From Patescibacteria group bacterium (lineage in GTDB: Bacteria > Patescibacteriota > Microgenomatia > JAMCYU01), in NCBI GenBank assembly GCA_023473585.1, contig JAMCYU010000003.1:1-59014 (forward strand): a stretch of DNA of 59,014 nt. The letters run 5' to 3'. Of the stretch, positions 1-45,574 are shown piece by piece (position 1 is the first letter of the stretch; every line of letters starts with the position of its first letter). Position numbers and translations under genes: made by a program. The notes under the pieces are model-generated. The model was not told the DNA's origin, made no database searches, and saw nothing but the letters and a program-made list of their open reading frames with translations.

Positions 1-100
1 ACAATCCATCCTTCTGTTTCTAAAATCCTCAGAGACTATACGTCGGATCCCGACTAGGTCGGGAAAGATATAGTCCAATACCGATTTAATCGGTAATTAG
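1..100 (+). ncRNA. 3' end of a group I intron in 23S rRNA (5' part outside window)
   Basis: The segment holds the two core strings of group I introns: a CAGAGACTATA motif near 30-41 (R element, P7/P3 region) and AAGATATAGTCC near 65-76 (S element). A short P9-like hairpin, CCGATTTAATCGG (81-93), follows, and the segment ends in a G directly before 23S exon sequence AGCGAAG. The exon context matches the conserved 23S region near E. coli 1920-1930, a known intron site in other bacteria. No ORF is visible in the part seen. Confidence 0.8.
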
Positions 101-109
101 AGCGAAGCC

Positions 110-142
<33 letters not shown>

Positions 143-218
143 TAGAACGAGCAAGCGACTGTCTTGAGCCTTTGCCCGGCGAAATTGAAGTGGCTGTGAA
201 GATGCGGCCTACTTGCAC

Positions 219-251
<33 letters not shown>

Positions 252-334
252 ACTTGGCACTGAGGAGATATTTTCAACTGTCGAGTGTAGGAGGGAGCTT
301 GTGCGTAGCACAAGGGAAGCAAGATATGGATATT

Positions 335-385
335 AGTTATTGGGAATTGGTAATAAACTAATTCCTAATTTCTATATCTGATTTC
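335..385 (+). repeat. degenerate-word hairpin inside the 23S L1-stalk region
   Basis: The left arm, starting GATATTAGTTATTGGG, is an imperfect inverted copy of the right arm, ending CCTAATTTCTATATC. The arms consist of slightly varied short words, as in other spacer hairpins in this window. It lies in the variable 23S region corresponding to helices 76-79 and probably extends one of these helices. Confidence 0.55.
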
Positions 386-680
386 TGGTTTCTCTCGCGC
401 TGCGCGCGAGCACTAATGGAACACCTCTCTTTGGGAATATCAATTCTAATCTCCAAGCCACATAAAAATCTGGCGGAGAGACAATGTCTAGCGGGCAGTT
501 TAACTGGGGAGGTTGCCTCCTAAATGGTAACGGAGGCGTACAAAGGTACTCTTAACACGGATGGAAATCGTGTTGGACGCGCAAAGGCGAAAGAGTGCTT
601 GACTGCGAGACGGACATGTCGAGCAGGGACGAAAGTCGGTCTTAGTGATCCTCGGATACCTCGTGGGAGGGTCCGAGCTT

Positions 681-713
<33 letters not shown>

Positions 714-984
714 GATCGCATCCGAGAGTCCATATCGACGATGCGGTTTGGCACCTCGATGTCGGCTCATCCTATCCTGGGGCTGAAGAAGGTCCCAAGG
801 GTCCGGCTGTTCGCCGGTTAAAAGGGTACGCGAGCTGGGTTCAGAACGTCGTAAGACAGTAAAAATTGACCGTTGCTGTCTATAAATCTGGTTAATTGCT
901 GGAAAATCCCGTTAGTATCTTCCAATACCTCAATAAGGTAAAAATTTGAAAGTGGGGATAATCAGCAAGCAAGCTCTTTATTAG

Positions 985-1470
985 GAAATGAGAAAAGAGA
1001 AGTGGGAAGCTGGATGAAGAAGTGAGAAGTGTGATAAGATAAAAATATGGCGATTCAAAGCTTTCTTGACCTTGATGTTTACAAAGAATCATTTCAATTA
1101 AGTGTCGAAATAGACGATCTTTTAAAGAAATTTCCTCCAGAAGAAAAATTTCTTTTAGTAGATCAAATGAAAAGAGCGTCAAGATCAATTCCTGCATTAA
1201 TTGCAGAAGGATATTCAAAGCGAGAATTCCAGAAAGAATTCAAAAAATTCTTAAGAGATGCATTGGCTGAAGCTAACGAAATGATGTGCCATTTAGCTTT
1301 TGCTAAAAGCAGAAAATATATAAATTATGCTTATGCAGATCAATTGATTCGTCGATATGATATTTTAGGTAAAAAATTGACGAATCTTAGAGAAAAGTGG
1401 ATCAATTTCAAGTAATCACATTTCCCATGTCAGTATCCAGTTTCCCATTTCACACCTCACATTTCTAAAA
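985..1470 (+). repeat. long imperfect inverted repeat enclosing the intron ORF
   Basis: About 50 bases before the ORF (985-1042, with AGTGGGAAGCTGGAT and AAGTGTGATAAG) are an imperfect inverted copy of about 50 bases after it (1419-1470, with ATCCAGTTTCCCATTT and TCACATTTC). The transcript could form a long P6 stem that presents the ORF as its loop. This resembles intervening sequences in Leptospira and Coxiella 23S genes, where an IVP ORF sits on a stem. Confidence 0.6.
1047..1415 (+). CDS. four-helix-bundle protein (S23 / 23S rRNA IVP family) inside the group I intron
   Basis: The 122-residue product has hallmarks of the S23/IVP four-helix-bundle family: an early LDVYKESFQLSVEI helix, the RASRSIPALIAEGYSKR motif near residues 45-61 (usual form R(A)xxSIxxNIAEG), then FKKFLRDALAEANEM and a last helix ending with LREKW. 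Family members are encoded in 23S intervening sequences of Leptospira and Coxiella and are free-standing in many CPR genomes; the molecular role is unsettled. Here the ORF replaces the homing endonuclease normally found in a group I intron. No clear Shine-Dalgarno sequence precedes the ATG. Codon use is AT-rich compared with neighbours. Confidence 0.85.
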   Translation: MAIQSFLDLDVYKESFQLSVEIDDLLKKFPPEEKFLLVDQMKRASRSIPALIAEGYSKREFQKEFKKFLRDALAEANEMMCHLAFAKSRKYINYAYADQLIRRYDILGKKLTNLREKWINFK

Positions 1471-2043
1471 GAGAAGCCTCAGAGACTATACGCCAGACCC
1501 TAAGTGAGAAACGAAGGGAAGATATAGTCCGAACTGCATGGCAACATGCAGAATACAACAGAAATGTTGTATCTCCCGATTTAATCGGGATGTAACATGA
1601 TTGTCGGTCTCTATCCGGTGCAAGCGATTAGAACTTGAAGGGATTTCCGCCTAGTACGAGAGGACTGGTGGGAACAGATCCCTGGTATACCAGTTGTAAC
1701 GTCAGTTGCATTGCTGGGTAGCTACATCTGGACGGGATAAGCGCTGAAAGCATATCAAGCGCCAAGCCCACCCTAAGATTAAGTTCTGTTACGGTCCCCC
1801 GAAGATGACGGGGTCGCCGCAAGGCGAACCTCGCCGAAGCCGCAAGGCGGAGGCGGGTTGATAGGTGGCAGGTGTAAGGCCCGTAAGGGTTTTAGCCGAG
1901 CCATACTAATAGACCAACCAAGCAAATTTTTAAATCACCCGTTTGAAACTTTTCTCTTGCCTTAGTAGATTTCTACTGCGGCTCGGGGAGCGTTTCTTAA
2001 CGGGCAAGAGAGACTCTCTTTACCTTTTAAGGTATAATAATTT

Positions 2044-2163
2044 TACCGGTCTTTGAAGCGGAGTGGAACTACTTCTTCCCATACCGAACAGAATCGTAAA
2101 ACACTCCAGCACCGACGATAGTTGTGACGCAAGTTACCGCGAAAATAGGTCGAGGCCGGTATT
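2044..2163 (+). rRNA. 5S ribosomal RNA
   Basis: The conserved loop CCCATACCGAACAGAATCG and the following CACTCCAGCACCGACGATAG are 5S signatures. The 5' end TACCGGTCTT pairs with the 3' end GAGGCCGGTA to form helix I. It lies about 115 bases after the 23S gene, as expected for an rRNA operon. Confidence 0.9.
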
Positions 2164-2348: not shown

Positions 2349-3476
2349 TTGGCAAACAAAACACTCAGCACCAGACACTCAACACCAAAAGAATTAAAAA
2401 GTCTTAAGTCTTCAGTCTTAAGTACTAAGTCCTCTAAAGAACCTCAAACCATGGAGGAGCTTTTGAATAACACCGGCTATCAACTTCGTGGTTTTAAGAA
2501 GGGTGATACGGTGACAGGGAAAGTGATTTCGATTAAGCCTTCGGAAATTTTAATTGACATCGGTTATAAAAGTTTAGGGATCATCTCCGAAAGAGAAATT
2601 GATTTAGTCGCCGGTCTTTTTCCCAATCTTAAAGTTGGTGATGAGATTTTGGTCCAAATCGTTTCTCCCGAAACCGACGCCGGTCAGATCGTTTTGTCAA
2701 TTCGCCGGGCCGGTTTGGATAAAAAATGGCAGGAATTACTGGAAAAAAAGGAAAAAGGAGAAGCCGTTGAGGTTTCCAACCTTGAATCGGCCAGGGGAGG
2801 ACTTCTGGTTGACTGGCAGGGAGTCAGGGGATTTTTACCGGCTTCGCAATTAGCCTCCGCTTTAGGCCAAAAATCTTTAGGTGAGAAGATTAGGGTTATT
2901 GTTTTGGATATTGACAAAACAACCAATCGTTTGGTTTTTTCCGAAAAAAGGGCACAGGGAGAAAAAAGGAATCCTGAGGCCTTAGCCAAAATCAAAATTG
3001 CCCAAACTTATAAAGGGACCGTTTCAGGCATCGTCCCTTTCGGGGTTTTTGTCAACGTTGAAGGGGTTGAGGGTTTGGTGCATATTTCCGAAATGGCCTG
3101 GGAAAAAGTCGGCAACCCCAGTGACTACTATAAAATCGGCGATAAAATCAAAGTTCTGGTTATCTCAACAAATACCTTAACCGGACGCCTTAATTTATCA
3201 GTCAAGCAGTTGACTGCCGATCCCTGGCAGGAATTGGTGAAAAAATACAATCCGGAACAGCAAATTACCGGTAAAGTTAAAAAAATCTCCAGTTTCGGCG
3301 TTTTTGTCGAATTGGAAAAGGGGATCGAGGGTCTTATCCATATCTCCAAAATTCCGCCCGAGGTTGAACTTAAGGAAAATGAAAAAATCACCTGTGTCAT
3401 CGAAGGCATTGATTATCAAAAAAGAAAGATTTCCTTAACCTTGGTTTTAAAAGAAAAACCAGTGGGGTACCGGTAG
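2349..3476 (+). CDS. rpsA: 30S ribosomal protein S1
   Basis: The protein carries four S1 RNA-binding (OB-fold) repeats at roughly residues 51-115, 125-195, 221-290 and 305-370, including GTVSGIVPFGVFVNVEGVEG and GKVKKISSFGVFVELEKGIE. This is a short S1 type (E. coli has six repeats). S1 helps mRNA bind the 30S subunit. The start is uncertain. Frame opens at TTG 2349, but the first 34 codons run through degenerate-word repeats, and a family-like start MEELL lies at ATG 2451. The best Shine-Dalgarno (AAAGGA, 2330) points to ATG 2342 in another frame, which closes after 21 codons. Confidence 0.9.
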   Translation: MANKTLSTRHSTPKELKSLKSSVLSTKSSKEPQTMEELLNNTGYQLRGFKKGDTVTGKVISIKPSEILIDIGYKSLGIISEREIDLVAGLFPNLKVGDEILVQIVSPETDAGQIVLSIRRAGLDKKWQELLEKKEKGEAVEVSNLESARGGLLVDWQGVRGFLPASQLASALGQKSLGEKIRVIVLDIDKTTNRLVFSEKRAQGEKRNPEALAKIKIAQTYKGTVSGIVPFGVFVNVEGVEGLVHISEMAWEKVGNPSDYYKIGDKIKVLVISTNTLTGRLNLSVKQLTADPWQELVKKYNPEQQITGKVKKISSFGVFVELEKGIEGLIHISKIPPEVELKENEKITCVIEGIDYQKRKISLTLVLKEKPVGYR

Positions 3477-3481
3477 GTGGC

Positions 3482-3620
3482 GAGGCTGGCGGTAACGAAT
3501 TTTCTCACCTCGCATTGTCCTTGGTAGATTATTGTGCTAGTGCACTAGCACGTAGTTTTACTACAAGAATTGGCAGGAGCGTAAGTGCGGGGTTGTCGAA
3601 AATTGTTACGCGCCATCCTC
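3482..3620 (+). repeat. AGCACG-core palindromic element, copy 1
   Basis: Outer inverted ends GGCGGTAACGAATTTTC and GAAAATTGTTACGCGCC flank a conserved TTGTC, a central CTAGCACGTAG and a GCGTAAG string. It fills the whole spacer between rpsA and radA. Related copies lie at 9876, 10093, 31628, 31778 and 45423. Confidence 0.8.
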
Positions 3621-4929: not shown

Positions 4930-5073
4930 AAGAGCCTCTTTTTGACAGGTTTTTCTATCCCCAAATTATCAACAAGGAATTAGTGTATCTTAAAAGATTG
5001 TTACAACGCTCTATAACTATTATCTAAAATTATAGGATATCAACTATTTTAAGTTTAAAATACTATGGGGTCT

Positions 5074-5101
5074 TGACAAAGGTTTTTTGATGTGCTATAG
5101 C
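5074..5101 (+). promoter_or_regulatory. sigma-70-type promoter for the 5.1-5.5 kb unit
   Basis: TTGACA (5074-5079), a 16-base spacer and TATAGC (5096-5101) precede the small ORF at 5121. Confidence 0.6.
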
Positions 5102-8207: not shown

Positions 8208-10886
8208 ATGCCCTTATTATTGTTTCTGGCCTTTTTAGGAAGATTGTTTCTCTTGCCGTTGCCTGGCTTTGGCATTGATATCAATGATTGGATGGCCTGG
8301 GCCAACCATCTTTTAGCGGTCGGGCCGGCGCGATTTTATGGCACGATTTGGTGCGATTATTTACCGGCCTATCTTTATGTTCTTTGGTTTTTGGCAGATC
8401 TCCATAGGTTTATTCCCAATCTTCCTTATGAAATTTTAATGAAAATTCCGGCGGTTTTGGCTGATTTGGGGATTGGTTTTTTTATTTATCAGACAGTCAA
8501 AGAAAACCGCTCTTCCAGGCTGGCTCTTTTAACCGCCGGTTTATTTTTATTTAATCCGTTCACTTTTTTTAACAGCGCTATCTGGGGACAAATTGATTCG
8601 GTTTTTAGTTTGTCGCTTCTTTCAAGCGTTTTTCTCTTGTTAAAAAAAAGAGAAAAGCTAAGCTTTGTCGTTTTGGGAGTCTCATGTCTTTTGAAGCCGC
8701 AGGCCATCTTTTTCCTCCCTTTATTTCTTTTATGGATGGTTACCAAAAAAGCAACGGTAGGCGAGATTGTCATTAATCTTTTCGCTTTTGCGGGCAGTAT
8801 TTTCTTGATCAGCCTGCCGTTTTTTCCTCAAAATCCGCTTTCCGGATTAATGCAGCTTACCATCAAAAGCAGTAATACCTATCCTTATACCTCGCTCTTT
8901 GCCGTAAATTTATGGGGTCTTTTGGGGACCTGGGAACCAGACAATTTAAATTTTATGGGCTTGTCTTATCAGTTTTGGGGTTTTCTTCTTTTAGCCTCGG
9001 GTTTGCTTTTTACCTATTTTCTTTATTGGCAAAAGAAAAACGTCATGTTTTTCTTTTTTTCGGCAGCCCTGATCGTTTTAATGTTTTTTATGTTGCCGAC
9101 GCGCGTGCACGAGCGCTGGTTTTATGCTTTTTTTCCTTTTTTTCTCATTACGGCGGCTTTGACTAACAAAAGAAAAATCTGGTTTGGTTACGGGACATTA
9201 TCGGTTCTTCATTTTCTAAATCTTTATTACGTTTACACTTATTACAATCAGAATTTTCTGAAAATTACCCAATTGACAGATTTTATCGGTAACAACTTCA
9301 AATTTTTAAGTTTTCTTTCGGTGACAATTTTTGGCTTAATTTTAGTTTGGGGAATAAGGGGATTGGGGAAATTAGAGAAATTTGTCTGGGAGAAAAAGAT
9401 AAAAAGAGAAATGATTTTAGTTATTTTCCTGTTTTTTGTAAGCTTTCTTATTAGAGTGATACGTTTAGATATTCCAAAGACTTACATATTTGATGAAGTT
9501 TACCACGCTTTTACGGCCGTGGAAATGGAAAAGGGAAATTTAGCGGCCTGGGAGTGGTGGAATACGCCGCCTAAGGGTTTTGCCTATGAATGGACGCATC
9601 CGCCTTTGGCCAAGGAAATGATGATTTTGGGGATTAAGATTTTTGGGGAAAATTCTTTTGCCTGGCGTTTTCCGGTGGCGCTTTTCGGCGCCGGGGTTAT
9701 CGTCCTGGGTTATCTTTTGGGTAAACAGCTTTTTAATCAGCGTGTCGGTTTAATCACGGCCTTTCTTTTAAACTTTGACGGTTTGGTTTTTGTCCAGTCG
9801 AGAATCGGCATGAACGACACCTTTTTTCTTTTCTTTATGCTTTTGGCGTTTTATCTGTTTACCAGGTATCGATCAGAAGCTGGGTCCTCACTTTTTCAAC
9901 CCGCACCCGGGTCTGCCTCCATTCAAAGACCTGGGCATAGCACGTTGTTCTTTCCGATGGGTGGCGTCAGGGGTGCTCTTGAAAAAGGAGATACCCATCT
10001 TCTCTTTATGAGTATAAGCCTGGGTTTGGCTCTGGCTTCCAAATGGACAGCCATGTACGCGATCGGGATTTTGGGAGGTTTATTTCTTTTCAGAGCCGTC
10101 GCCAACGAATTTTTTCGCTCCACCTTGTCAACCCTGATAAAGAAATCAAGTGATAGCACGCAGTCAGATTTAGGTCAAGACGAAGCCGTAAGCTGTGAAG
10201 CTACAAAAATTGTTGGACGCCATCTCTTGCGGGGATTTTTTAAGTTTCTTTTAATTTTTCTTGCTATTCCGCTTCTCGTTTATCTTTTTACTTATCTGCC
10301 TTTCTTTGCCGGCGGGCATACCTGGCAGCAGTTTGACGGACTCCAGCACCAAATGTGGTGGTATCATACCGGGCTTAAAGCGACTCATCCGTTTACCTCA
10401 TCCTGGTACTCCTGGCCGTTTATGTTTAGGCCGGTTTGGTATTATGTTGACTATGGTAAAGAGACGATTGCCAATATTTACGCCATGGGCAATCCGGCGA
10501 TCTGGTGGTTTGGTCTTTTGGCGGTCGGCTACACTTTAGTATTAAGTATTAAGTATTTAGTATTAAGTATAAAACGAAAATACTTTATACCTGATACTTT
10601 CTACTTAATACTTATTGTTGTGGGTTATTTTGGTTTCTTTCTTCCCTGGGCTTTGTCGCCGCGGATTATGTTTCTTTATCATTATCTGCCCTCCATTCCC
10701 TTTATGTGTTTAGCCCTGGGGTATAGTTTAGACAAACTCTGGCAAAGTCCTCGGTTTAAAATACTTGCTATTTACTACTTAATACTTGTTATTTTGGTCT
10801 TTGTCTATTTTTATCCTCATCTTTCGGCCCTGCCGATTCTTAAAGAATTAAACGAAACCTATTTTTGGTTTCCCAGCTGGCGCTGA
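8208..10886 (+). CDS. fused GT-C glycosyltransferase; C-terminal half of the PMT (GT39) type
   Basis: The 892-residue ORF holds two multi-pass units. Residues 1-400 begin with a first loop GFGIDINDWMAWANHLL and resemble mannosyltransferase-like GT-C proteins (HERWFYAFFPFF near 305). Residues 405-892 resemble dolichyl-phosphate-mannose protein mannosyltransferases: FDEVYHAFTAVEME (acidic loop), WTHPPLAKEMM, GMNDTFFLFF and a late HYLPSIPFM. Three repeat-derived stretches interrupt the second unit without breaking the frame: residues about 557-598, 629-673 and 775-803. They fall between membrane segments, where a loop could tolerate them. TATAAT at 8163 may be the promoter. Confidence 0.8.
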   Translation: MPLLLFLAFLGRLFLLPLPGFGIDINDWMAWANHLLAVGPARFYGTIWCDYLPAYLYVLWFLADLHRFIPNLPYEILMKIPAVLADLGIGFFIYQTVKENRSSRLALLTAGLFLFNPFTFFNSAIWGQIDSVFSLSLLSSVFLLLKKREKLSFVVLGVSCLLKPQAIFFLPLFLLWMVTKKATVGEIVINLFAFAGSIFLISLPFFPQNPLSGLMQLTIKSSNTYPYTSLFAVNLWGLLGTWEPDNLNFMGLSYQFWGFLLLASGLLFTYFLYWQKKNVMFFFFSAALIVLMFFMLPTRVHERWFYAFFPFFLITAALTNKRKIWFGYGTLSVLHFLNLYYVYTYYNQNFLKITQLTDFIGNNFKFLSFLSVTIFGLILVWGIRGLGKLEKFVWEKKIKREMILVIFLFFVSFLIRVIRLDIPKTYIFDEVYHAFTAVEMEKGNLAAWEWWNTPPKGFAYEWTHPPLAKEMMILGIKIFGENSFAWRFPVALFGAGVIVLGYLLGKQLFNQRVGLITAFLLNFDGLVFVQSRIGMNDTFFLFFMLLAFYLFTRYRSEAGSSLFQPAPGSASIQRPGHSTLFFPMGGVRGALEKGDTHLLFMSISLGLALASKWTAMYAIGILGGLFLFRAVANEFFRSTLSTLIKKSSDSTQSDLGQDEAVSCEATKIVGRHLLRGFFKFLLIFLAIPLLVYLFTYLPFFAGGHTWQQFDGLQHQMWWYHTGLKATHPFTSSWYSWPFMFRPVWYYVDYGKETIANIYAMGNPAIWWFGLLAVGYTLVLSIKYLVLSIKRKYFIPDTFYLILIVVGYFGFFLPWALSPRIMFLYHYLPSIPFMCLALGYSLDKLWQSPRFKILAIYYLILVILVFVYFYPHLSALPILKELNETYFWFPSWR
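9876..10002 (+). repeat. AGCACG-core palindromic element, copy 2 (inside a CDS)
   Basis: Outer arms GAAGCTGGGTCC..CTTTTTCAA and TTGAAAAAGGAG..ACCCATCTTC are inverted; inner arms GCACCC and GGGGTGC pair; the centre reads CATAGCACGTTG. The element is translated in frame in the GT-C gene. Confidence 0.7.
10093..10227 (+). repeat. AGCACG-core palindromic element, copy 3 (inside a CDS)
   Basis: The left end CCAACGAATTTTTTC and the right end AAAAATTGTTGGACG are inverted. TTGTC, TAGCACG and GCCGTAAG strings are present as in the other copies. The element spans 135 bases (45 codons), so the frame of the GT-C gene is kept. Confidence 0.8.
10530..10617 (+). repeat. degenerate-word hairpin inside the GT-C gene
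   Basis: The left arm is a run of near copies of AGTATTAAGTATT. The right arm is an inverted run (ATACTTTCTACTTAATACTT). Translation gives a strange SIKYLVLSIKRKYF insert between membrane segments. A related fragment lies at about 10760-10790. Confidence 0.7.
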
Positions 10887-14192: not shown

Positions 14193-14269
14193 AAGCAGAG
14201 CTTTTACTTCGTAAAAAGCAGAGCTTTTACTTCGTAAAAAATTGCGAGGTATTCTTGAAGCGCCGAATA
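14193..14269 (+). repeat. tandem small hairpins and CTTGAAGCGCCGAAT tail element
   Basis: Two tandem copies of a 23-base unit (GCAGAGCTTTTAC then TTCGTAAAAA) each form a TTTTAC/GTAAAA hairpin. They are followed by GCGAGGTATTCTTGAAGC, a string that recurs at 46477-46505 and, inverted, at 25335-25353. Confidence 0.7.
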
Positions 14270-14278
14270 ACAACCCTT

Positions 14279-16591: not shown

Positions 16592-19500
16592 TTAATTTCC
16601 GACAATGAACCAGTCGAATTTAATATCGGCGGAACTGGTGGCCGAAACGCCAACGGCAAATTCGCCGCTTCTTTTTTCGGTCACGGTCAGGACCTTGTCG
16701 GTTAAGGTCGTCGGGGTCAATAAAATCCGGGCGGAGGCGGTGGCGGCCTCGGCCGAGATCGTGGCGACAAGCTGGCCGGCCAAAAGACTGGCCGAGCCGG
16801 CGGTTTTGGCGCCCAGAACCTTAAATTCTTCGGTTTCCACCTTTTTGGCGGTAAGCGTGCCTTCAACCTTGACGTTGCCTTTTTGATCAATCACGATTTT
16901 TTGCCCCATCATTTCAATGTTGCCCAATGCTGTGGCCTGCAATTTCAAGGGGAGTGCTAAAGTTTCGATGGAACCTTCAAGACCGTTAACGACCAAAAGG
17001 CCGTTGGTGATTTTGCCGGTGAGACCCAGGTCGGAAAGAAGCGTCCGGCCCAAAACCGTTAATTGGCCGGACAAAGTCGCGTCTTTGCCGGTGAGATTTA
17101 CCAGACTGGCCGAAATCGTGGCTTGGGTACTTAAGCCGAGGGTCAAAAGAGAAATTTGGTTTTTAAGCTCGGCGGTTATCGAAGCCAGCCTCGCCTCAGA
17201 CGAGGCCAGAGTCGAGTCTAGGCGGGCATATTTATTGTCCAAATTCGAAATCCGAAAATCTAAATCCGAAACTTTTGTTTCGAAATTCGAGTTTAGTGCT
17301 TCGAATTTTTGCTTGGTGAGATTGCCGTTTTCGTCGAGTTTGACAGAAAGGGAAGTTAAACTACCGCTTTGTGTGGCGATTTGCCCTTGTTGTTCCTTGA
17401 TGGCGTTGACGGTAAGCGCCACGACTGATGTCGTGTCCAAGCTCCAATAACCGCTATCCTGCAAAGCACTGGCTTCAGGAAGGACACTTTTGACATTCTG
17501 TGCCGAGAAGCCGACATGAACAAAGTCTTCGCCTTTATAAGAAAAGCGTATCGGATTGAGTGCCGAGAGCGCGCTAAGGCCTCCCTGATAATAGCCATAA
17601 ATGTTTTTCAGGTTCTCATCTGACGTGCAGATAATATCTCCTGAAGTGTTAGCCGAGAGGGTGCCGGCGGTTTTACAACCTGCTTGGCGGATGGTGCCGT
17701 TGACATCTAATTTCTGCCCCGGCCCTGTCGTCCCGATGCCGACGTTGCCAGAAAGAATTGCTGAAGCTCCCATTGTTTCTTGAGCAGGGTCAATATAGTA
17801 GTTTCCATTCTGGTCGGCAAAAACAGTCGCCCTGACCTTGCCGTTCACGTCGAGTTTTTCTGCTGGCGCTGTCGTCCCGATGCCGACATTGCCGCCGTTT
17901 GTTATAGTCATGCGTACCGTATTATTCGTCTGTAGTTCAATGAGACCATTTGTAGCATCAGTGCCACCTATTAGCTGAAGTTTATAAAAACTACTGTTTA
18001 TCGCCAGTCCACCGGCACTATTATCTTTAATAGTCTGACCGTTTGCGAAACCTATCTGTACAGGCTGGTCAAGACTAAGGTTGCCAGCGTAATGAGACGT
18101 ACCGTTTACATCTAACTTTGCCCCCGGCACCGTTGTCCCAATACCGACGTTGCCGCTACCATTCCAGGTTAAAACTGGCGTTCCGATTGTACTACTAACG
18201 GCTGCTTGATAACCTAGAGACCAAGCGCCTGTACCACCATAACTTTCTGTTTGAATGGTTCCATACTTACTTCCGTTAGAAGTGAAGGAAATATCGGTTG
18301 CATTGATAGAACCGTCAGTGGCCATGTTAAGATAGGGAGTTTGAACGGAAGTAGAAAACTTAGAATTTCCAACAACGTCTAATTTATATCCCGGCCCCGT
18401 CGTTCCTATACCGACATTGCCGCCCCATGGATTAAGAGCCAGATTTTTTGCTGCAGTTCCTGCATCGAAAGTCTGGATTTCTCCAAAATCCGCAGTGTCA
18501 TCATAGCCAATAAATAAAGCCTTCAGTGGATGAGAAGTCCCAGATATGCGCAATTGGGTGTTCTGATAGGTGGAAGCTATATCCACATTTTTAGAAAGAT
18601 GGAGTAGGGCTGCAGGTGCCGTCGTCCCGATGCCGACGTTGCCGGTTGATTTTATGACAATCGCGTTTGTATCAAGCGACCCAGCATTGCTAACCCTAAG
18701 ATAAGTATCTACGCCAGTGGCTGAGTTATCCACGAAGAAATTTTGAGTTCCATTAGAGCGGATATAATTTGACCCTAATTGTGTATAAAGAGCGGTTGTG
18801 TTTGAAGAACGAATGGTGCCATATACATCCAATTTTTCGCTCGGTGCTGTCGTTCCAATACCCACGTTCCCCCCGAAGTAATTGGTTCCTCCGGCGGAGT
18901 AGAGAGCAAAGTTGTTGGTGCCCGCAGATTGAGTGTTGACATACAAGCCATAATTATTGGTCAAGGAGGAACCGGCATTGACGGTGGGATTGTCAACGTA
19001 AAGTCCATAAAGATTGGTGATTGAAGAGGTGGTGCCCACCCCAATGTTACCAGAGACATAATCAACAAAAAGATTGGTCAGTTGGGGAGAAGTGCCTCCT
19101 ATGCCGATGTTTGGCCGGTTGTACATGCCGTAGATTGAAGTCACCGGTGTCGCCGAGTTCATGGTTCCCGTGTAAGTGTTATCCAACTTTGTTTGGTAGT
19201 AAGTCCCGGCCGAAGCCGCGGTGACTGTTTGAGCCACCTCTAAACTTCCTCCCGGACTGGTGGTGCCAATACCGACGTTGCCAGTAAATATTCCATTGCC
19301 CACTACATGGAGCGGAGCAGCCGCTGTTCCATCTGCGGTTGACCCTCCAATCCATAAACTTCCATCTGAAGTTTTAAAAACGAACTTGTTATTACCGCCC
19401 GTATTTTTGATTGCTAAGGTATCGGAATTCACTTTAACATCGACAGCATTAATAATCGATTGCGCACTCATATCCAACGTCCCTGCTAGTTTAAGATTGC

Positions 19501-22500
19501 TCGCTGTCAGCCAAGTGCCGTCATCACCAAACTTTCTTGTGGTTTGGAGAGTTGCGTTGCCGGGATAAAATCCTCCGTGGGAATAAACACTATCTGTGAA
19601 CCTTCCGAGTCCAGAGACATCAAGTTTGTATCCTGGCCCCGTCGTCCCGATGCCGACATTGCCGCCCGGCATTAAGGCCAGATTTTGCGAGGCGGCAGTG
19701 ATAATTTGGTTAGGACCGGTACCGGTAAAGGTCATGCCGGAACCGTTGCCGGTTAAATTCAAAGCGGCACTGTTGGCGTAAGAATTGGTGAGTTGATTAT
19801 TCATGGAAAGGGTCGTTATGCCCGAGACGGCACCAGTCGTTGTTAGATTGAAGGCGTTTGAGACTAAAGAAAGATTGCCGGTGGCGTTGCCGATGGCGGT
19901 CGCCGAGGTTCCCGTGGCGTTGAGATTGGTGGTGCCGGTGACGGTTAAGCCGCCGGTTCCCTGAATTAGACCTGATCCGGAATTAACACCAACCGCCGTG
20001 ACCGCGCCGGCCGAGGAAACCTGAAACTGGGAAGTAGCGCCGACCGACAAAGGAGCCGAGGGAGACGTGGTGCCAATACCGACAGAATCTCCAATGGTGG
20101 CCGGAGCCAGATTTGTCCCGTTTCTTTGCCAGTAGCCTAAAGACCCGGTGGTGGGAATGGTTGAGGTTAGGTTTTTTGAAGCATCGGTGTAAACTCCAGA
20201 GGAGGCGGTTAAGGTTGCGACATTCACCAAAGAGGTGAAGGAGGCGGTGGAGCCTACGCCTAAAGTCCCGTTGACTTCCAGTTTGTAGGCCGGACTGGTG
20301 GTGCCAATGCCAACGTTGCCGCCCGGCATTAAGGCCAGATTTTGCGAGGCGGCAGTGATAATTTGGTTAGGACCGGTACCGGTAAAGGTCATGCCGGAAC
20401 CGTTGCCGGTTAAATTCAAAGCGGCACTGTTGGCGTAAGAATTGGTGAGTTGATTATTCATGGAAAGGGTCGTTATGCCCGAGACGGCACCAGTCGTTGT
20501 TAGATTGAAGGCGTTTGAGACTAAAGAAAGATTGCCGGTGGCGTTGCCGATGGCGGTCGCCGAGGTTCCCGTGGCGTTGAGATTGGTGGTGCCGGTGACG
20601 GTTAAGCCGCCGGTTCCCTGAATTAGACCTGATCCGGAATTAACACCAACCGCCGTGACCGCGCCGGCCGAGGAAACCTGAAACTGGGAAGTAGCGCCGA
20701 CCGACAAAGGAGCCGAGGGAGACGTGGTGCCAATACCGACAGAATCTCCAATGGTGGCCGGAGCCAGATTTGTCCCGTTTCTTTGCCAGTAGCCTAAAGA
20801 CCCGGTGGTGGGAATGGTTGAGGTTAGGTTTTTTGAAGCATCGGTGTAAACTCCAGAGGAGGCGGTTAAGGTTGCGACATTCACCAAAGAGGTGAAGGAG
20901 GCGGTGGAGCCTACGCCTAAAGTCCCGTTGACTTCCAGTTTGTAGGCCGGACTGGTGGTGCCAATGCCAACGTTGCCCGAATTGGCGATGACAAACTTCG
21001 GCGTGCCCGAGGCCGAGGCGGTAAAAAGATCCTGATTTTGGATTTGGTTAACAATTAGGGCCGCCTTGCCGGAGGCGGTAATCCCGGAATCGGGATTGAT
21101 GAAAAAAGTGGGCGCGTTCGTCGAGAGCCATTTCGAGGTTGAATTCCAGCGTATCTCGGCATTAGTGGCCGGCACACCTCGTTCAAAGGTTAAGGTAATG
21201 TCTTGGGTGTCAGTGGTGGCGTTAGCCGAACCAATCAGCCAATCGTAAGCAGAAGTCGCTCCGGTAACAACCGTGCCTGATAAATTTGTCGCCGTCACGG
21301 TATCGGCCCAAACATTAAGCCACCGGCGGGTGTTTGAGCCAAGATTGTAGTTAGAGCCGGGATTAGGAACTAAATCACTGTTAACATAACCGTTAACCGT
21401 TAAGCTGTCAGAAGTTGTCGCTCCCAAGATGACGGAACCGTTTAAATAAGTCGCTCCCGCCACTTGCAAAGCGTAAGCACCGGGGTTGGTTGTGCCTATA
21501 CCCACATTGCCTTCAACGATCAATCCTGAAGTAGGAGCGGCAATGTTCCCGTAGGAAGCACCAATAGAAACATTGCTTAAGACCCCAAGCTTTGATCCGG
21601 GAGTGGTTGTGCCGATGCCCAAATTACCGGTAAGATCAGCATTCCCAGAAACGGTGAGTTTATTCGCCGGAGTGGTTGTGCCGATGCCGACGCGGGAGTT
21701 TTGCGTATCTAAGGAAAGAAGCGAAGTTTCAAAACTTAAGGCATTGACAGTGGTGTTTTTCAAGTCAACATTTGTCGCTTGAGTCGAAAGATCTAAAGTC
21801 GGGGAATCAATCTTGACGGCGGTTGAGCCGGAAAGTTTGATGGTCGGTTCGGTTAAGGTGATGATTCCGTCGGTGGTATTGTCAATGGTGGCGTTGTTAA
21901 CCAAGGTCAAAAGTCCGGTGTTGGCCACGGTCAGCCGTGAGCCGATGGTAAAAATACCACTGCCCAGAAAGGTAAAAGCATTATTGTCGGTGGCACTGCC
22001 GAATTCTAAAAGATTAGTGCTGCCGGTTAATTTAAAAATATTATTTAAGCCGTCATCGCGGAGAGTAAAATTGGAGCCATCTCCATATTGGATGATTCCG
22101 GCGCCGTTAAAATCCAAAGTGGCCGCGCCTAAGTTTAAGGCCGTCGTCGAAACGGAATTGATGGTCGGCGCGTTGATAACCAAAGTGGGATTAATGGAAG
22201 TACTGCCCAGGGTAATTTTCTCGCTTGAGTTAGTCGTATCTATATTGATATAGTCATTGGTGCCCTCTTGAAGATCAAAAGCATTGATGGTGTTGTCAGG
22301 GAGATTGATGGTGGTGGTTCCGGAAACCGTCAGCGTATCAGTGGTTGAATCGCCCAAGATACTGTTGCCGCCAACGGTTAAATTACCACTCGTTTCAATA
22401 TTGCCGGTGGTCGCTAAAGTTGTTCCCTGGACCGTGAGGGAACCGCCGATACTGACCGCATTGGAAAAATCCGCATCCTTAGACCAAATCTTAAGCCAAC

Positions 22501-24085
22501 GTAAGGGCGTTGTGCCGTCGCCTAAATTATATTTATTGTTTTCCGCGGGGTTAAGATCCGACCCAAGTTGGCTGGCGGACAAAATCAGTTTGGCATTATC
22601 AATTTTTAAATTACCGGAAATGGTTGCCGCTCCGAGAAATTCTGCCTGGCCGCCGACTTTGAGCGTGTTTTTCAGGTTGGCGTCATTGACAAAGAGGGTG
22701 GCAAAACGTTTACTCGTTAGACCAAGCGAACCCAGGCTGTCGTCGGCAGGATAAAAGTTGGCGCTGTTGTCGCCTTTGATCGAGCCGGCGCCTGAAAAAA
22801 GGTTGGCGCTGGGAAAGCCCGCGGCCACCAACACTCCGGCCCCAGACCCCTTAAAGGCCGAAGACGAACCGGCGGCAAGTTCCGAGCCAAGTTGAGATTC
22901 TGAAGAAATTTCCACCAAACTCGCGTCGTCCAGATAAATCACGCCGCCCTGATAATCAATAATTTCCAAAAAAGGGTACTTTCCTAAAGCCGCGTTTTCG
23001 TAAGTGAAAGTGAAAGGCGTCCAACCCGAAACGCCGGCAATCTCAACCGGCGCCGAAGCCGCAACCTCATCTTTGGCCAGACGAGGATAGTTGGGATCAT
23101 CTTTTGCGACTTGGCCCATAAACCCAAGACGTAATTTGGGGTGGCCGAGCAAATCTTTGCTTCTTAAAAAAACCGAGAAAGAATAATGGCGGCCGTTGAC
23201 TGTCGTCGTTTCCGTCTGACTAATTCCCAATGACATTCGATCGTTGCCAGTTCGATTCCCGGAATTTAGGGCGTTTAATTCCGGGAATCGGGAATCCCAA
23301 ACTTTCATGGCCAAGGTTCCGCTTCTGACCGAGTCATTGCTGACATAGAAGTTTCCTTTATGAGCCATTTCGAGATAGCCCCAGCGCCAAGCCTGGCCGA
23401 ATTTCGTTTTGCCCTGACCGTCGGTTCCCACCGTGTTTAGAGGATTTTCAAAGGAAGGATTAGCTAAAAGATTTTCCGAAAGGACTTGCGGTTTTAAGCC
23501 CAAGGTGGTCTCTTCGGGAATTTTAACACCGGCGACCTCCGGAAAATATAAAGAGGGTCTGATTAAATTGGCTAATTGTTGAGAAAAATAAGCGGTTAAA
23601 CGCTGAAGATAATCTTTACCGTAAGGAGTTACGGCCAGTCCCACAAGGATGCCGGTTAATAAAATGATTCCCGCCAGCGTGTAGACAAATTTTCTTTGGA
23701 TTCGAAAGCCAAAATTCCAAAGCCGAAAGCCGAAGGTGGGGGGTGGCGTTTTGAGACTTAAATCCTGTCCAAGAGTTTGTCCGGTAGTTTGGACTTCATA
23801 CTTGAGTTTTTCCGCGGTCATGATTCTGCCAATTTCGGCCATTGTTTTGCCGGCCTTTTTTAATTCCTGGATTTTTTCCAGAAGTTGCAGGGTGTAGAAA
23901 GGGTAGTGACCTTCGGTGAAAGCATTCACTCCGACCTGTTTTCTTTGGGCATGGGGGATGAGGCCGATTTTAGTAAAATAACGCAGACGGTTATTGGGGT
24001 TCCCGCGACCAAGACCAATACCTTGTTTTTGACAAAGCAGAATTAAGTCTTTGGCGGTAATTAATCTCTCTCGGGCAGGCGTCAT
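16592..24085 (-). CDS. giant tail-fibre-like surface protein: MerR-like N-terminus, membrane anchor, VGIGTT stalk, S74 chaperone domain
   Basis: The 2497-residue protein starts with a MerR-type helix-turn-helix-like region (about 1-110, with NRLRYFTKIGLIPHAQR) and then a single membrane helix (FVYTLAGIILLTGILVGLAV, about 131-152). A carbohydrate-binding-like segment follows (LLANPSFENPLNTVG, about 205-395), then a long beta stalk with about fifteen VGIGTT-P motifs, as in phage tail fibres. Near 2200-2290 lies a peptidase S74 intramolecular chaperone domain (TSDENLKN then FVHVGFSAQNVKSVLPEA). A coiled-coil and beta tail end the protein. In other S74 proteins the domain helps trimer folding and cuts itself off. 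The N-terminus inside and stalk outside suggest a cell-anchored adhesin. Confidence 0.85.
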   Translation of the reverse strand: MTPARERLITAKDLILLCQKQGIGLGRGNPNNRLRYFTKIGLIPHAQRKQVGVNAFTEGHYPFYTLQLLEKIQELKKAGKTMAEIGRIMTAEKLKYEVQTTGQTLGQDLSLKTPPPTFGFRLWNFGFRIQRKFVYTLAGIILLTGILVGLAVTPYGKDYLQRLTAYFSQQLANLIRPSLYFPEVAGVKIPEETTLGLKPQVLSENLLANPSFENPLNTVGTDGQGKTKFGQAWRWGYLEMAHKGNFYVSNDSVRSGTLAMKVWDSRFPELNALNSGNRTGNDRMSLGISQTETTTVNGRHYSFSVFLRSKDLLGHPKLRLGFMGQVAKDDPNYPRLAKDEVAASAPVEIAGVSGWTPFTFTYENAALGKYPFLEIIDYQGGVIYLDDASLVEISSESQLGSELAAGSSSAFKGSGAGVLVAAGFPSANLFSGAGSIKGDNSANFYPADDSLGSLGLTSKRFATLFVNDANLKNTLKVGGQAEFLGAATISGNLKIDNAKLILSASQLGSDLNPAENNKYNLGDGTTPLRWLKIWSKDADFSNAVSIGGSLTVQGTTLATTGNIETSGNLTVGGNSILGDSTTDTLTVSGTTTINLPDNTINAFDLQEGTNDYINIDTTNSSEKITLGSTSINPTLVINAPTINSVSTTALNLGAATLDFNGAGIIQYGDGSNFTLRDDGLNNIFKLTGSTNLLEFGSATDNNAFTFLGSGIFTIGSRLTVANTGLLTLVNNATIDNTTDGIITLTEPTIKLSGSTAVKIDSPTLDLSTQATNVDLKNTTVNALSFETSLLSLDTQNSRVGIGTTTPANKLTVSGNADLTGNLGIGTTTPGSKLGVLSNVSIGASYGNIAAPTSGLIVEGNVGIGTTNPGAYALQVAGATYLNGSVILGATTSDSLTVNGYVNSDLVPNPGSNYNLGSNTRRWLNVWADTVTATNLSGTVVTGATSAYDWLIGSANATTDTQDITLTFERGVPATNAEIRWNSTSKWLSTNAPTFFINPDSGITASGKAALIVNQIQNQDLFTASASGTPKFVIANSGNVGIGTTSPAYKLEVNGTLGVGSTASFTSLVNVATLTASSGVYTDASKNLTSTIPTTGSLGYWQRNGTNLAPATIGDSVGIGTTSPSAPLSVGATSQFQVSSAGAVTAVGVNSGSGLIQGTGGLTVTGTTNLNATGTSATAIGNATGNLSLVSNAFNLTTTGAVSGITTLSMNNQLTNSYANSAALNLTGNGSGMTFTGTGPNQIITAASQNLALMPGGNVGIGTTSPAYKLEVNGTLGVGSTASFTSLVNVATLTASSGVYTDASKNLTSTIPTTGSLGYWQRNGTNLAPATIGDSVGIGTTSPSAPLSVGATSQFQVSSAGAVTAVGVNSGSGLIQGTGGLTVTGTTNLNATGTSATAIGNATGNLSLVSNAFNLTTTGAVSGITTLSMNNQLTNSYANSAALNLTGNGSGMTFTGTGPNQIITAASQNLALMPGGNVGIGTTGPGYKLDVSGLGRFTDSVYSHGGFYPGNATLQTTRKFGDDGTWLTASNLKLAGTLDMSAQSIINAVDVKVNSDTLAIKNTGGNNKFVFKTSDGSLWIGGSTADGTAAAPLHVVGNGIFTGNVGIGTTSPGGSLEVAQTVTAASAGTYYQTKLDNTYTGTMNSATPVTSIYGMYNRPNIGIGGTSPQLTNLFVDYVSGNIGVGTTSSITNLYGLYVDNPTVNAGSSLTNNYGLYVNTQSAGTNNFALYSAGGTNYFGGNVGIGTTAPSEKLDVYGTIRSSNTTALYTQLGSNYIRSNGTQNFFVDNSATGVDTYLRVSNAGSLDTNAIVIKSTGNVGIGTTAPAALLHLSKNVDIASTYQNTQLRISGTSHPLKALFIGYDDTADFGEIQTFDAGTAAKNLALNPWGGNVGIGTTGPGYKLDVVGNSKFSTSVQTPYLNMATDGSINATDISFTSNGSKYGTIQTESYGGTGAWSLGYQAAVSSTIGTPVLTWNGSGNVGIGTTVPGAKLDVNGTSHYAGNLSLDQPVQIGFANGQTIKDNSAGGLAINSSFYKLQLIGGTDATNGLIELQTNNTVRMTITNGGNVGIGTTAPAEKLDVNGKVRATVFADQNGNYYIDPAQETMGASAILSGNVGIGTTGPGQKLDVNGTIRQAGCKTAGTLSANTSGDIICTSDENLKNIYGYYQGGLSALSALNPIRFSYKGEDFVHVGFSAQNVKSVLPEASALQDSGYWSLDTTSVVALTVNAIKEQQGQIATQSGSLTSLSVKLDENGNLTKQKFEALNSNFETKVSDLDFRISNLDNKYARLDSTLASSEARLASITAELKNQISLLTLGLSTQATISASLVNLTGKDATLSGQLTVLGRTLLSDLGLTGKITNGLLVVNGLEGSIETLALPLKLQATALGNIEMMGQKIVIDQKGNVKVEGTLTAKKVETEEFKVLGAKTAGSASLLAGQLVATISAEAATASARILLTPTTLTDKVLTVTEKRSGEFAVGVSATSSADIKFDWFIVGN
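19661..20977 (-). repeat. 657-bp in-frame tandem duplication in the giant gene
   Basis: Bases 19661-20320 recur at 20318-20977 with an offset of 657 bases. By eye the copies are identical, and so are the two encoded 219-residue blocks from GNVGIGTTSPAYKLEVNG to NLALMPG. The lack of divergence indicates a recent duplication, or an assembly artefact. Confidence 0.9.
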
Positions 24086-25305: not shown

Positions 25306-25334
25306 AGTTACCCCCGCAAGGGGGTAATTTTTTA
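25306..25334 (+). terminator. rho-independent terminator
   Basis: GTTACCCCC and GGGGGTAA form a stem with loop GCAA, followed by a run of T. It ends the zinc-ribbon gene. Confidence 0.9.
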
Positions 25335-25376
25335 TTCGGCACTTCAAGAATACATTCACCCTTAAGGGAGAATGTT
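25333..25376 (+). repeat. hairpin element sharing CTTCAAGAATAC and CCCTTAAGGGAGAATGTT
   Basis: TTCGGCACTTCAAGAATAC is the inverse of the tail at 14250-14269 and 46485-46505. CACCCTTAAGGGAGAATGTT also occurs at 46427-46446. The three loci therefore share pieces of one palindromic repeat. Confidence 0.65.
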
Positions 25377-29078: not shown

Positions 29079-29108
29079 TTTCTTTTTGTCAAGTTTAGCG
29101 TAAAGTTT

Positions 29109-29147
29109 GCGCGATCGCGCGTCAATTTATCCATTTTTAGGCATGAG
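29109..29147 (+). repeat. GCGATCGC repeat, copy 2
   Basis: GCGCGATCGCGCGTCAATTT then ATCCATTTTTAGGCATGAG. It lies between the small minus-strand gene and the PaaX-like gene. Confidence 0.9.
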
Positions 29148-29191: not shown

Positions 29192-29893
29192 ATGCGTAGT
29201 TTGACTAAAAAAATACTTCTTCTTTTAGCCGCAGGTTTAGATGAGATAGCTGATTGGGATAAGACGTTGACCAGTCCATATCTTTCTCTTAAATTCATCT
29301 CATATAAAGACGATTATTTTCAAAAAATAATCAGACAAATGCTTAAAGCAGGTCAGATAGAGAGAATTGTTAAAAGAGGAGAACCTTTTTTTAGAGTTAC
29401 TTCCAGAGGGAAAATTAAACTGGTTTATGACATTCCTTTGGCCAAAAGATTTGGGCAAAAATGGGATGGAAAATGGCGGATGGTGATTTTTGATATTCCG
29501 GAGATTTCCAAAACCAAAAGAGACGGACTGCGCAGAAAGCTTAAGGAACTTGGTTTTGCACAGTGGCAAAAGAGCGTTTATATTACCCCTTTTGACGTGG
29601 CAGTGGAATTAGCAGAACATCTTGGAGTTAATAATTTATCGGATAACGCCATTGCTTTGGAAGCCAAAAAAATCTTCGTTGGCGACGAAAAGGAGATGGC
29701 CAATAGGCTTTGGCGTCTTGATGATCTAAATTTGAAATATCAAAATTTTGTAGAAAAATACCAAAAAGAGAAAGACAAAAAGTCGTGGGAAGAGGAATAT
29801 TTGGCGATTTTAGAAGTTGATCCATGTTTACCAAGCGATCTTTTACCACAACCATGGTGGAAAAATCAAGCAAAAAAATTGGTCTATGGATAA
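29192..29893 (+). CDS. PaaX-like transcriptional regulator with a Cas2-like central domain
   Basis: The 233-residue protein has an N-terminal winged-helix part (about 1-80, ending FRVTSRGKIKLVYDIPLA) and a central segment WRMVIFDIPEISKTKRDGLR plus LKELGFAQWQKSVYITPFDV (about 93-135), the ferredoxin-like fold shared by PaaX and Cas2. A helical PaaX-type C-terminus follows. Relatives in CPR genomes are often labelled Cas2, but no CRISPR array or cas1 is present here, so a regulatory role is more likely. It precedes the competence genes, though a repeat separates them. Confidence 0.75.
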   Translation: MRSLTKKILLLLAAGLDEIADWDKTLTSPYLSLKFISYKDDYFQKIIRQMLKAGQIERIVKRGEPFFRVTSRGKIKLVYDIPLAKRFGQKWDGKWRMVIFDIPEISKTKRDGLRRKLKELGFAQWQKSVYITPFDVAVELAEHLGVNNLSDNAIALEAKKIFVGDEKEMANRLWRLDDLNLKYQNFVEKYQKEKDKKSWEEEYLAILEVDPCLPSDLLPQPWWKNQAKKLVYG

Positions 29894-29938
29894 AATCATG
29901 CGCGATCGCGCGTCAATTTATCCATTTTTAGCCTTGAG
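29892..29938 (+). repeat. GCGATCGC repeat, copy 3
   Basis: AAAATCATGCGCGATCGCGC then GTCAATTTATCCATTTTTAG and CCTTGAG. It begins inside the TAA stop codon of the PaaX-like gene and is nearly identical to the copy in leuS. Confidence 0.9.
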
Positions 29939-30701: not shown

Positions 30702-31616
30702 TTGAAAAACATACTCATTCCCATTTTTCTTGTCTCTATTTTCTTTTCTTGTCAAAATTTTTGGCCTGTTTTTGGTGAAACTCGATCAAAATATAGATTA
30801 ACTAATACAAAAACGACGAATATTTTCAGCCAGAAGACCAATAAGCTTTTACCGGAGCCCCAGGCCGCTCTTTTAAACGGAATTTTGTGGGGGACGAAAG
30901 AGACGATGCCTCGTGATTTTTACGAGGCGCTCCGTCGAACCGGAACCCTGCATGTCATTGCTCTCTCGGGGATGAATATCACGATTTTAGTTGCCCTGAT
31001 AGGCAAATTAACTCTTTTTTTGGGCCGGAAAAAATCCATTTTCATTACTCTTTTAAGTATTTTTGTCTTTATTGGCTTCGTCGGCCCTTCGGCTTCGGTT
31101 GTTCGGGCCGGTATCATGGGTTCTTTGACGCTTATTGCCGTTTATTTTGGCAGACGGGACTGGAGTTTGCTAAGTTTGGTTTTGGCCGCCGGAATCATGT
31201 TAATTTTTTTTGCAAACTGGCTGACCGATGTCGGTTTCCAACTTTCCTTTTTGGCGACATTGGGCATTATTCTTTTTGCTTCGAAACCGGAAAGCCAAAA
31301 GACAAGGGGAGTAGGGCAAGAAATTTTGAAAAAGACGAAGGATAATTTACAAACGACTCTGGCTGCTCAAGTTTTTACTTTGCCGGTAATGTTAATTACT
31401 TTTAAGCAGCTTTCGCTGATTGCGCCGGTCACGAATGTCTTGGTTTTATGGATTGTCCAGCCGATTATGGTTTTGGGCTTTATCTTAAGTCTTCTGTCTT
31501 TAGTTTTTTGGCCTTTAGCTTATCCTTTGGCCTGGATTATTTGGTTGCCTTTGACTTATTTTATCGAAGTCGTTGAGTTGACAGCCAGAATACCCTTTGC
31601 GGCCATAAATTTTTAG
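30702..31616 (+). CDS. comEC: ComEC/Rec2 channel domain (N-terminal part of split comEC)
   Basis: The 304-residue multi-pass protein holds the Competence domain: the motif GTLHVIALSGMNITILVALI (about 85-105), several membrane helices and LTDVGFQLSFLATLGIILF. ComEC forms the pore that takes single-stranded DNA into the cytoplasm. The usual N-terminal DUF4131 region is missing or reduced. The frame opens at TTG 30702 without a Shine-Dalgarno sequence, 17 bases after comEA. It ends at IPFAAINF, where normal ComEC proteins continue into a further helix and the metallo-beta-lactamase domain; that part is now a separate ORF at 31928. Confidence 0.88.
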   Translation: MKNILIPIFLVSIFFSCQNFWPVFGETRSKYRLTNTKTTNIFSQKTNKLLPEPQAALLNGILWGTKETMPRDFYEALRRTGTLHVIALSGMNITILVALIGKLTLFLGRKKSIFITLLSIFVFIGFVGPSASVVRAGIMGSLTLIAVYFGRRDWSLLSLVLAAGIMLIFFANWLTDVGFQLSFLATLGIILFASKPESQKTRGVGQEILKKTKDNLQTTLAAQVFTLPVMLITFKQLSLIAPVTNVLVLWIVQPIMVLGFILSLLSLVFWPLAYPLAWIIWLPLTYFIEVVELTARIPFAAINF

Positions 31617-31627
31617 GCGAGCGAAAG

Positions 31628-31764
31628 CGGCCGCCGGTTATGAATTTTTTCACTCCACGTTGTCTTGTTTAGATTAATGTTTTAGCGCACTAGCACGTTA
31701 GCAATTTTAAAACGATGGCGCAGCCGTAATGAGTGGAGATGTCAAAAATTATAACCTGGCGTCC
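31628..31764 (+). repeat. AGCACG-core palindromic element, copy 4
   Basis: The left end GCCGCCGGTTATGAATTTTT and the right end AAAAATTATAACCTGGCGTC are inverted. Inner TCCAC/GTGGA pair, TTGTC follows the left arm, the centre is CTAGCACGTTAG, and GCCGTAATG precedes the right arm. Confidence 0.8.
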
Positions 31765-31777
31765 TTGTGTTTATTGA

Positions 31778-31914
31778 GGGGCCGGCGGTCAACAATTTTA
31801 GAGGAGTCACACTTACCTTTAATGGATATTAAATTCAGCAATACTTGAATCTAAGACTAGGCTATAATTGACTTGAGCAGAAGTGGCGACGGAAAAATTC
31901 GTTGCCGCCAGCCC
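31778..31914 (+). repeat. palindromic element, copy 5 (same ends, no AGCACG core)
   Basis: The left end GGCCGGCGGTCAACAATTTT and the right end AAAAATTCGTTGCCGCCAGC are inverted, and inner GTCACACTT pairs with AAGTGGCGAC. It directly follows copy 4. It contains TATAAT at 31863-31868, a possible promoter for the downstream ORF. Confidence 0.7.
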
Positions 31915-31927
31915 ATTTTAAAAAACC

Positions 31928-33388: not shown

Positions 33389-33442
33389 TATAATGAGTGA
33401 AACGAATTAATCGAAGAACAGTAATAAAATCACTCAATAATT
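33389..33442 (+). promoter_or_regulatory. argS promoter and leader motif
   Basis: TATAAT (33389-33394) is followed by GAGTGAAACGAATTAATCG. GAGTGA can pair with TCACTC (33436-33441). It is the same motif as at leuS, glgA, tRNA-Pro and 53309. Confidence 0.65.
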
Positions 33443-41166: not shown

Positions 41167-41236
41167 TATAATGAGTGTAACGAATTAATCGAAGATATAT
41201 CAATAATTACACTCATTTATCTTCGATATAATGAGG
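41167..41236 (+). promoter_or_regulatory. double TATAAT region with possible pseudoknot before glgA
   Basis: TATAAT (41167-41172) is followed by GAGTGTAACGAATTA. GAGTGTAA pairs with TTACACTC, and the enclosed ATCGAAGATA pairs with the downstream TATCTTCGAT, giving interleaved stems. A second TATAAT (41227-41232) lies 8 bases before the glgA start. Confidence 0.65.
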
Positions 41237-45412: not shown

Positions 45413-45422
45413 AGATGTTTTT

Positions 45423-45555
45423 GAGTCGGCGGTAACGAATTTTTCCATAACCGCGACTCAGTCTATTCCTAAAAGCTATGGCAGAGCACGTAATTGAGAT
45501 TGATAATATAGTTATTGCCATAAGGCGGTATTTCAAAATTGTTACGCGTCGCCTC
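45423..45555 (+). repeat. palindromic element, copy 6
   Basis: The left end GTCGGCGGTAACGAATTTTT and the right end CAAAATTGTTACGCGTCGCC are inverted. Inner ATAACCGC pairs with GCGGTAT, and the centre has GAGCACGTAATTG with GCCATAAG before the right arm. Confidence 0.8.
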
Positions 45556-45574
45556 TTTACTATATTAATTTAGA

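Follow-up and report, generated by a model that had tools for sequence, protein, structure and literature searches.

Copies of a palindromic element in and around the window

The genome analyzed here comprises 809,578 bp in 12 contigs and is 95% complete; the window, a stretch of 59 kb, is contig C3. The source is probably a member of the Patescibacteria (Microgenomates), as suggested by the genome size, the rRNA introns, and the sequence-only reading described below. Within it lie six copies of a palindromic element about 135 bp long (range over the copies, 127 to 141 bp). The best-formed copy, at 3482..3620 on the plus strand, is located between the gene of an S1-domain protein (stop codon at 3474-3476) and a radA-like gene (ATG at 3628). 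Its left arm spans 3482-3504 and its right arm 3598-3620, an inner stem joins 3507-3512 to 3588-3593, and the core TAGCACG is found at 3546-3552. Copies 2 (9876..10002, plus strand; divergent arms) and 3 (10092..10227, plus strand) are in-frame insertions of approximately 42 and 45 codons in a single plus-strand gene, 8208..10886, encoding a GT87/PMT-type mannosyltransferase of 892 amino acids. Copy 4 (31627..31766, plus strand) begins 10 bp 3' of the stop of a comEC-like gene (30702-31616), and copy 5 (31778..31915, minus strand), which has a poor inner stem, is immediately upstream of a metallo-beta-lactamase (MBL) gene (31928-32782); the two copies make up almost the entire 311-bp spacer (31617..31927) between these genes. 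Copy 6 (45422..45556, plus strand) lies 9 bp 3' of the stop of a GH57-type gene (45412), with 18 bp to the next ATG (45575). Two further copies are on the minus strand of contig C9, one at 23648-23788 and the other, at 4946-5081, an in-frame insertion in a glutamate dehydrogenase (GDH) gene.

The copies were defined by profile and covariance searches. An nhmmer profile trained on copies 3482, 10092, 31627, 31778 (minus strand), and 45422 returned the same five and the two on C9, all with E values of 1e-18 or better. The covariance model R1, built from those five window copies and the two C9 copies, recovered copy 9876-10002 without having been trained on it (E = 8.6e-4, whole genome); 9876 is a divergent true copy. 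A second covariance model, R2, built from nine sequences (the eight genomic copies and one from another genome, G055), gave eight significant matches genome-wide, six in the window and two on C9. The definition of the family required neither the C9 copies nor 9876. Left-end matches at 34884 (argS) and at C11:32321 were below significance. No flanking sequence was shared between copies in a copy-against-genome comparison with about 2 bp of flank and by inspection of the flanks by eye.

A sequence-only reading of the window had listed the same six copies, and all of them are real, although the one at 31778 is on the minus strand. As that reading stated, AGCACG is present in five of the six, the exception being 31778. 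The CGTAA-like string that it placed before the right arm is found in most copies and is degenerate in 9876 (GGCGTCAG) and 31778 (GGTAAG). Neither of the outcomes that it named as refuting, a lack of further genomic copies or a lack of covariation, came about: two more copies are on C9, and pair counts against controls (below) show covarying arms.

Other repeats were observed in the same DNA. A 40-bp dispersed repeat (TATAATGAGTGTAACGAATTAATCGAAGA...) occurs at 18 places on nine contigs, including 41167-41206, 33389-33428, and 53308-53347 of the window. A repeat of 40 to 55 bp around the palindrome GCGCGATCGCGC is found at 28422-28476, 29097-29147, and 29888-29938 and nowhere else in the genome. 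A dispersed repeat of 22 to 25 bp, GTATTCTTGAAGCGCCGAATAACAA, is present in both orientations at window positions 14249-14273, 25332-25353, and 46484-46505 and at C4:98616 and C8:60968. An ORF of 2,497 amino acids on the minus strand (window 16592-24085) contains at least 16 imperfect GTCGTCCCGATGCCGACGTTGCC-like repeats of about 31 bp, as well as a nearly exact internal duplication of 300 bp (19616/20273).

Pairing is kept while the arm sequences change

Each copy can be folded into a single long hairpin with an outer stem of about 20 bp, and in most copies an inner stem encloses a conserved core, left unpaired, with TTGTC, TAGCACG, and GCCGTAA. The consensus outer stem pairs GGGCTGGCGGTAACGAATTTT against AAAATTGTTACNCGCCATCCC, and in the best copies a second stem is formed by TCACTCCAC and GTGGAGT. 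Of 176 outer-stem cells, 164 are Watson-Crick, 4 are wobble, and 8 are unpaired (95% paired). The same arm compared between copies shows a mean identity of 62%, and 33 to 61% for the two most divergent copies. In the copy at 9876, all 18 of the 18 aligned outer-stem pairs are Watson-Crick while the same-arm identity to other copies is only 34 to 61%. With arm identity low and Watson-Crick pairing high, the arm sequences turn over and the pairing is kept.

Covariation was judged by pair counts against shuffled and slid controls. With seven copies aligned by MAFFT alone, 90% of cells were paired compared to 81.5% in shuffles, and both sides had changed in 12 pairs compared to 6.2 in shuffles (0/500 shuffles) and 2 to 5 in slid controls. 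In a nine-sequence alignment, which was fitted to the structure, 91% of cells were paired against 74% in controls, and both-side change was seen in 18 pairs against 9.1. The suggestion that compensatory change in the arms reflects selection on a folded structure is thus supported, with both-side changes and pair counts well above the controls.

The helix also carries recurrent defects, which we read directly from the copies: a C/T mismatch and a single additional base in each of the two arms. These recur even between copies with wholly different arms. One example is left GGCTGGCG-GTAAC-G-AATTTT versus right (reverse complement) GGATGGCG-C-GTAAC-AATTTT; copy 9876 has left GCTGGGT-CCTC-A-CTTTTTC versus right (reverse complement) GATGGGT-AT-CTC-CTTTTTC, and the G055 copy has left GATCTAGCCG-TAAGAT-G-TTTTTC versus right (reverse complement) GAGATAGACG-A-TAAGAT-TTTTTC. 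Wobble pairs account for 2.4% of paired outer-stem cells versus 6.1% in tRNA stems of the same genome, a small deficit over nine sequences. Since wobble is rarer than in tRNA stems, there is a weak lean, from a small sample, toward a DNA hairpin or arm-to-arm correction over RNA.

A structure more conserved than its sequence, with extrahelical bases, is also found in integron attC sites, and two tyrosine-recombinase genes are present in the genome. We nonetheless consider attC-like recombination sites a highly improbable explanation. The core pair RYYYAAC...GTTRRRY is absent from the ends of the element, as read directly from the arm ends, and the attC reading was ruled out on these core sites; moreover, there is no cassette array, and the inserted unit is the element itself, inside genes. 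The likeness to attC is one of working only, a palindrome recognized by its folded shape, and the element, lacking attC core sites and cassettes, is not a member of that class.

In-frame insertions and occupied spacers

The three copies within genes (9876 and 10092 in the PMT-type gene and C9:5081-4946 in the GDH gene) are in-frame insertions of approximately 42 to 46 codons, and all three are translated in the same frame of the element (frame 0). Copy 3482 is open over its full length in that frame; the others have stops. The earlier description of the element as having no ORF therefore does not hold. In the PMT-type protein, the approximately 42 and 45 extra residues each occupy a loop that connects conserved transmembrane segments, and they are missing from about 20 clear homologues in an alignment with class relatives; the foot of this alignment includes some distant GT87-type paralogues, on which the argument does not rest. 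The GDH insert of about 45 residues (RAGGHEF...VAHHPL) stands between DEYGKYI and the TFTGKPL motif, at a position where 24 aligned class relatives show a short variable loop only.

The other five copies are in gene-gene spacers, and those other than copies 4 and 5 start 1 to 10 bp 3' of a stop codon. The comEC-like and MBL genes abut or overlap in most relatives, typically with a 4-bp overlap. Spacers of 78 to 226 bp occur at this junction in four relatives (L171, L172, L178, and L180), all of family f8, and none of these f8 spacers matches the element. A split of a comEC gene by copies 4 and 5 was considered and dropped because the MBL part is encoded by a gene of its own throughout the class. 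Relatives with empty sites, for which the sequence-only reading had advised a search, were thus found, in the form of insert-free GDH and PMT homologues and of comEC/MBL pairs that mostly abut or overlap. The nearest relatives compared are of the same class only, so these empty sites are comparisons between distant genomes.

Separately, the left end of copy 5 shares about 50 bp, with 84% identity (E = 2e-9), with the tgt gene at C4:159500-159549 (minus strand). This segment is in frame, in a variable loop of the tRNA-guanine transglycosylase. We did not accept it as a clear insertion because the loop is no longer than in relatives; it may be a remnant or the product of an exchange.

Distribution in other genomes

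A search of 374 genomes of the class with R1 gave one further match, a single copy in G055 (E = 4.1e-6), which is 10 bp 3' of the stop of a cation-ATPase gene and on the same strand. R2 found nothing outside the element's own genome in 380 genomes of the phylum, a draw that overlaps the class set. Overall, about 700 genomes were searched, none of them a relative nearer than class level, and these yielded one probable divergent copy, in another genus. The G055 sequence is a probable, not a certain, relative of the element because so many genomes were searched; its score of 86 bits with R2 is circular, the G055 copy being among the training sequences. Searches of more than 40 genomes used stricter filters and scored few candidates in each, which means that families with weak or divergent sequences could escape them. 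The comparison with related genomes that had been advised thus returned almost nothing beyond this one probable relative. The viral-contig, plasmid, and phage collections contained no match to the element, and a pattern scan of the genome-contig collection gave 7 matches in unrelated taxa, near the number expected by chance, none of which scored with R2. Searches of the open-access literature turned up no description of elements like these from CPR bacteria. The best reading of this distribution is a lineage-restricted family.

G055 also contains a different palindromic element (L054:3002-3107, minus strand), reading HSRAGGNL in frame inside a cation-ATPase ORF. It has weak similarity to Rfam FtrB, under the cut-off of that family, and we take it to resemble a CGTC-type REP. 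A search of G055 for a second copy of the L054 element found none.

The sequence-only reading had also entertained a structured RNA family, and a cis-acting or small RNA (a regulatory leader, an mRNA stabilizer, or a terminator) multiplied in the genome would account for the conserved unpaired core motifs and covarying stems, for the sense orientation of 7/8 copies relative to the surrounding genes, and for the several copies about 10 bp or less after a stop codon. We consider this account improbable. Three copies are within ORFs and translated, one is on the opposite strand, and the genes adjoining the copies are mutually unrelated by the Pfam assignments of the neighbors. In addition, no copy has an Rfam match above the gathering threshold, no T-run is found 3' of the stem, G-U pairs are few, and the family is restricted to one genome and one probable copy elsewhere.

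Clustering and orientation of the copies

The 5' ends of C9 and C3 overlap by 126 bp; this overlap falls at an intron-like insert within the 23S rRNA gene. The 3' ends of C3 and C8 have 127 bp in common. When the contigs are joined by these overlaps, a region of approximately 69 kb around the rRNA operon contains all eight copies. An error of about 15 bp in the joined length, at the junction, is immaterial for the clustering estimate. The chance of eight random sites lying so close is about 3e-7, or about 3e-5 if the two close pairs count once each. Because the window was chosen on account of the finding, the grouping of its six copies is in part a selection effect; the two C9 copies are unselected. 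In the joined order, seven of the eight copies are co-oriented, following the strand whose GC skew is positive. Such local, oriented spread is compatible with a replication-linked process, which it fits without proving.

The 23S rRNA gene itself is interrupted (window 1-2161, C9:1-127) by a sequence with group-I-intron-like ends, CTATACG...GATATAGTCC. A gene for a 23S rRNA intervening-sequence (four-helix bundle) protein is found at 1047-1415, and the break between C9 and C3 is at such an insert.

Low copy number and strong local clustering would also fit chance palindromes or old segmental duplications devoid of mobility, but we give this explanation almost no credence. The seven main copies have profile E values of 1e-23 to 1e-32 (with a profile trained on those same copies), 9876 was recovered independently, the ends of the element are precise with flanks not common to the copies, and the insertions are in homologous loops.

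Search for a mobilizing enzyme

One Y1 (IS200-like, RAYT-like) transposase gene is present in the genome, at C10:13523-14131, and it is flanked by short direct repeats (TGATATAGTYTGAC). The element is absent from beside it, and R2 gave no significant match on C10. A genome-wide search that covered Y1 transposases and tyrosine recombinases found no cognate transposase, and there was none among the annotated genes of the window. The copy-against-genome comparison revealed no insertion sequence with the element's ends, and no consistent target-site duplication was visible by eye at the 8 sites.

The element might be an unusually long REP/TIR family moved by the RAYT/Y1 transposase of this genome, a reading that we consider unlikely. 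In its favor, a Y1 gene is present, and Y1 enzymes act on imperfect single-stranded DNA hairpins, with some RAYT genes having long TIRs on their flanks that make up repeat families of their own (PMC3733652). The element shares with REPs an imperfect hairpin with mismatches and bulges, dispersal, and an occasional location in genes. However, REPs are units of 20 to 40 bp with a GTAG (or CGTC) tetranucleotide outside the stem (PMC3733652), whereas the element is 127 to 141 bp long with neither tag, and at the sole Y1 gene the flanks are direct repeats in place of the palindrome. The REP-like label of the sequence-only reading consequently found no support.

A candidate family of mobile palindromic elements

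The non-autonomous mobile element that was also proposed there is supported. Because there are eight dispersed copies, three inserts absent from aligned homologues, and a comEC/MBL spacer made of two copies, we conclude that these palindromes (approximately 127 to 141 bp) very probably form a new non-autonomous family of mobile elements that would work like the Rickettsia palindromic elements (RPEs), with mobility inferred from the patterns of insertion.

Protein-coding palindromic elements have been described chiefly from Rickettsia and Wolbachia; to our knowledge, their mechanism of movement is not known. RPEs are 105 to 146 bp, form long stem-loops, and are located in intergenic DNA as well as, in frame, within conserved genes (PMC2229807, PMC3767692, PMC10969869); a Rickettsia guanylate kinase is active with its palindromic-element insert (PMC2229807). 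The present element resembles RPEs and WPEs (approximately 100 to 150 bp, with terminal inverted repeats and a long stem-loop) in its length and its outer stem. It is likewise found both between genes and in in-frame fusions within conserved genes (5 spacer and 3 in-gene copies here), its in-gene copies share one element frame (3/3), and its host has a small, compact genome with no known transposase for it. It differs in its unrelated host lineage, its fewer copies, its conserved internal core, the turnover of its arms with fixed helix defects, and the confinement of all copies to one region. The comparison is one of features as a kind, with no sequence alignment behind it, and kinship by descent with RPEs is unlikely. 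MITEs such as Correia/NEMIS, ERIC, RUP, and YPAL are similar in being non-autonomous, with terminal inverted repeats, lengths of 100 to 200 bp, and some in-frame ORF fusions; here, in contrast, no consistent target-site duplications or TA ends were seen by eye, the copy-against-genome comparison showed no parent IS with these ends, and the arms covary between copies.

As to mechanism, the folded hairpin may be the mobile form, recognized by its shape and core and not by the sequence of its arms, and it would most likely move as single-stranded DNA that becomes accessible at the replication fork. The mover would be an enzyme encoded elsewhere, for which an HUH/Y1 type is a tentative first choice; a Y1-like enzyme acting on folded single-stranded DNA is favored because the hairpin is imperfect with fixed defects and the copies show an orientation bias. 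The copies occupy gene-gene spacers or loops of functional-looking proteins, and those seen today may be the survivors of selection in a compact genome, in which an insertion would persist only if it fell between genes or kept the frame in a surface loop. More speculatively, and with considerable doubt on our part, the element could be recognized by the shape of the folded strand and not by its end sequence, its arms being freely rewritten while the helix persists together with its constant mismatch and bulges. It could spread locally in one orientation and insert into protein-coding sequence, which would make it the RPE counterpart of this lineage, mobilized by a system that has yet to be described.

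The conserved helix defects, combined with free arm sequence, provide a testable clue to shape-specific recognition of single-stranded DNA, one for which we know of no description in RPEs. If a family of this kind did arise independently, in a small-genome lineage unrelated to Rickettsia and Wolbachia, it would suggest that compact genomes repeatedly acquire selfish insertions in functioning genes and that such insertions can add new loops to enzymes.
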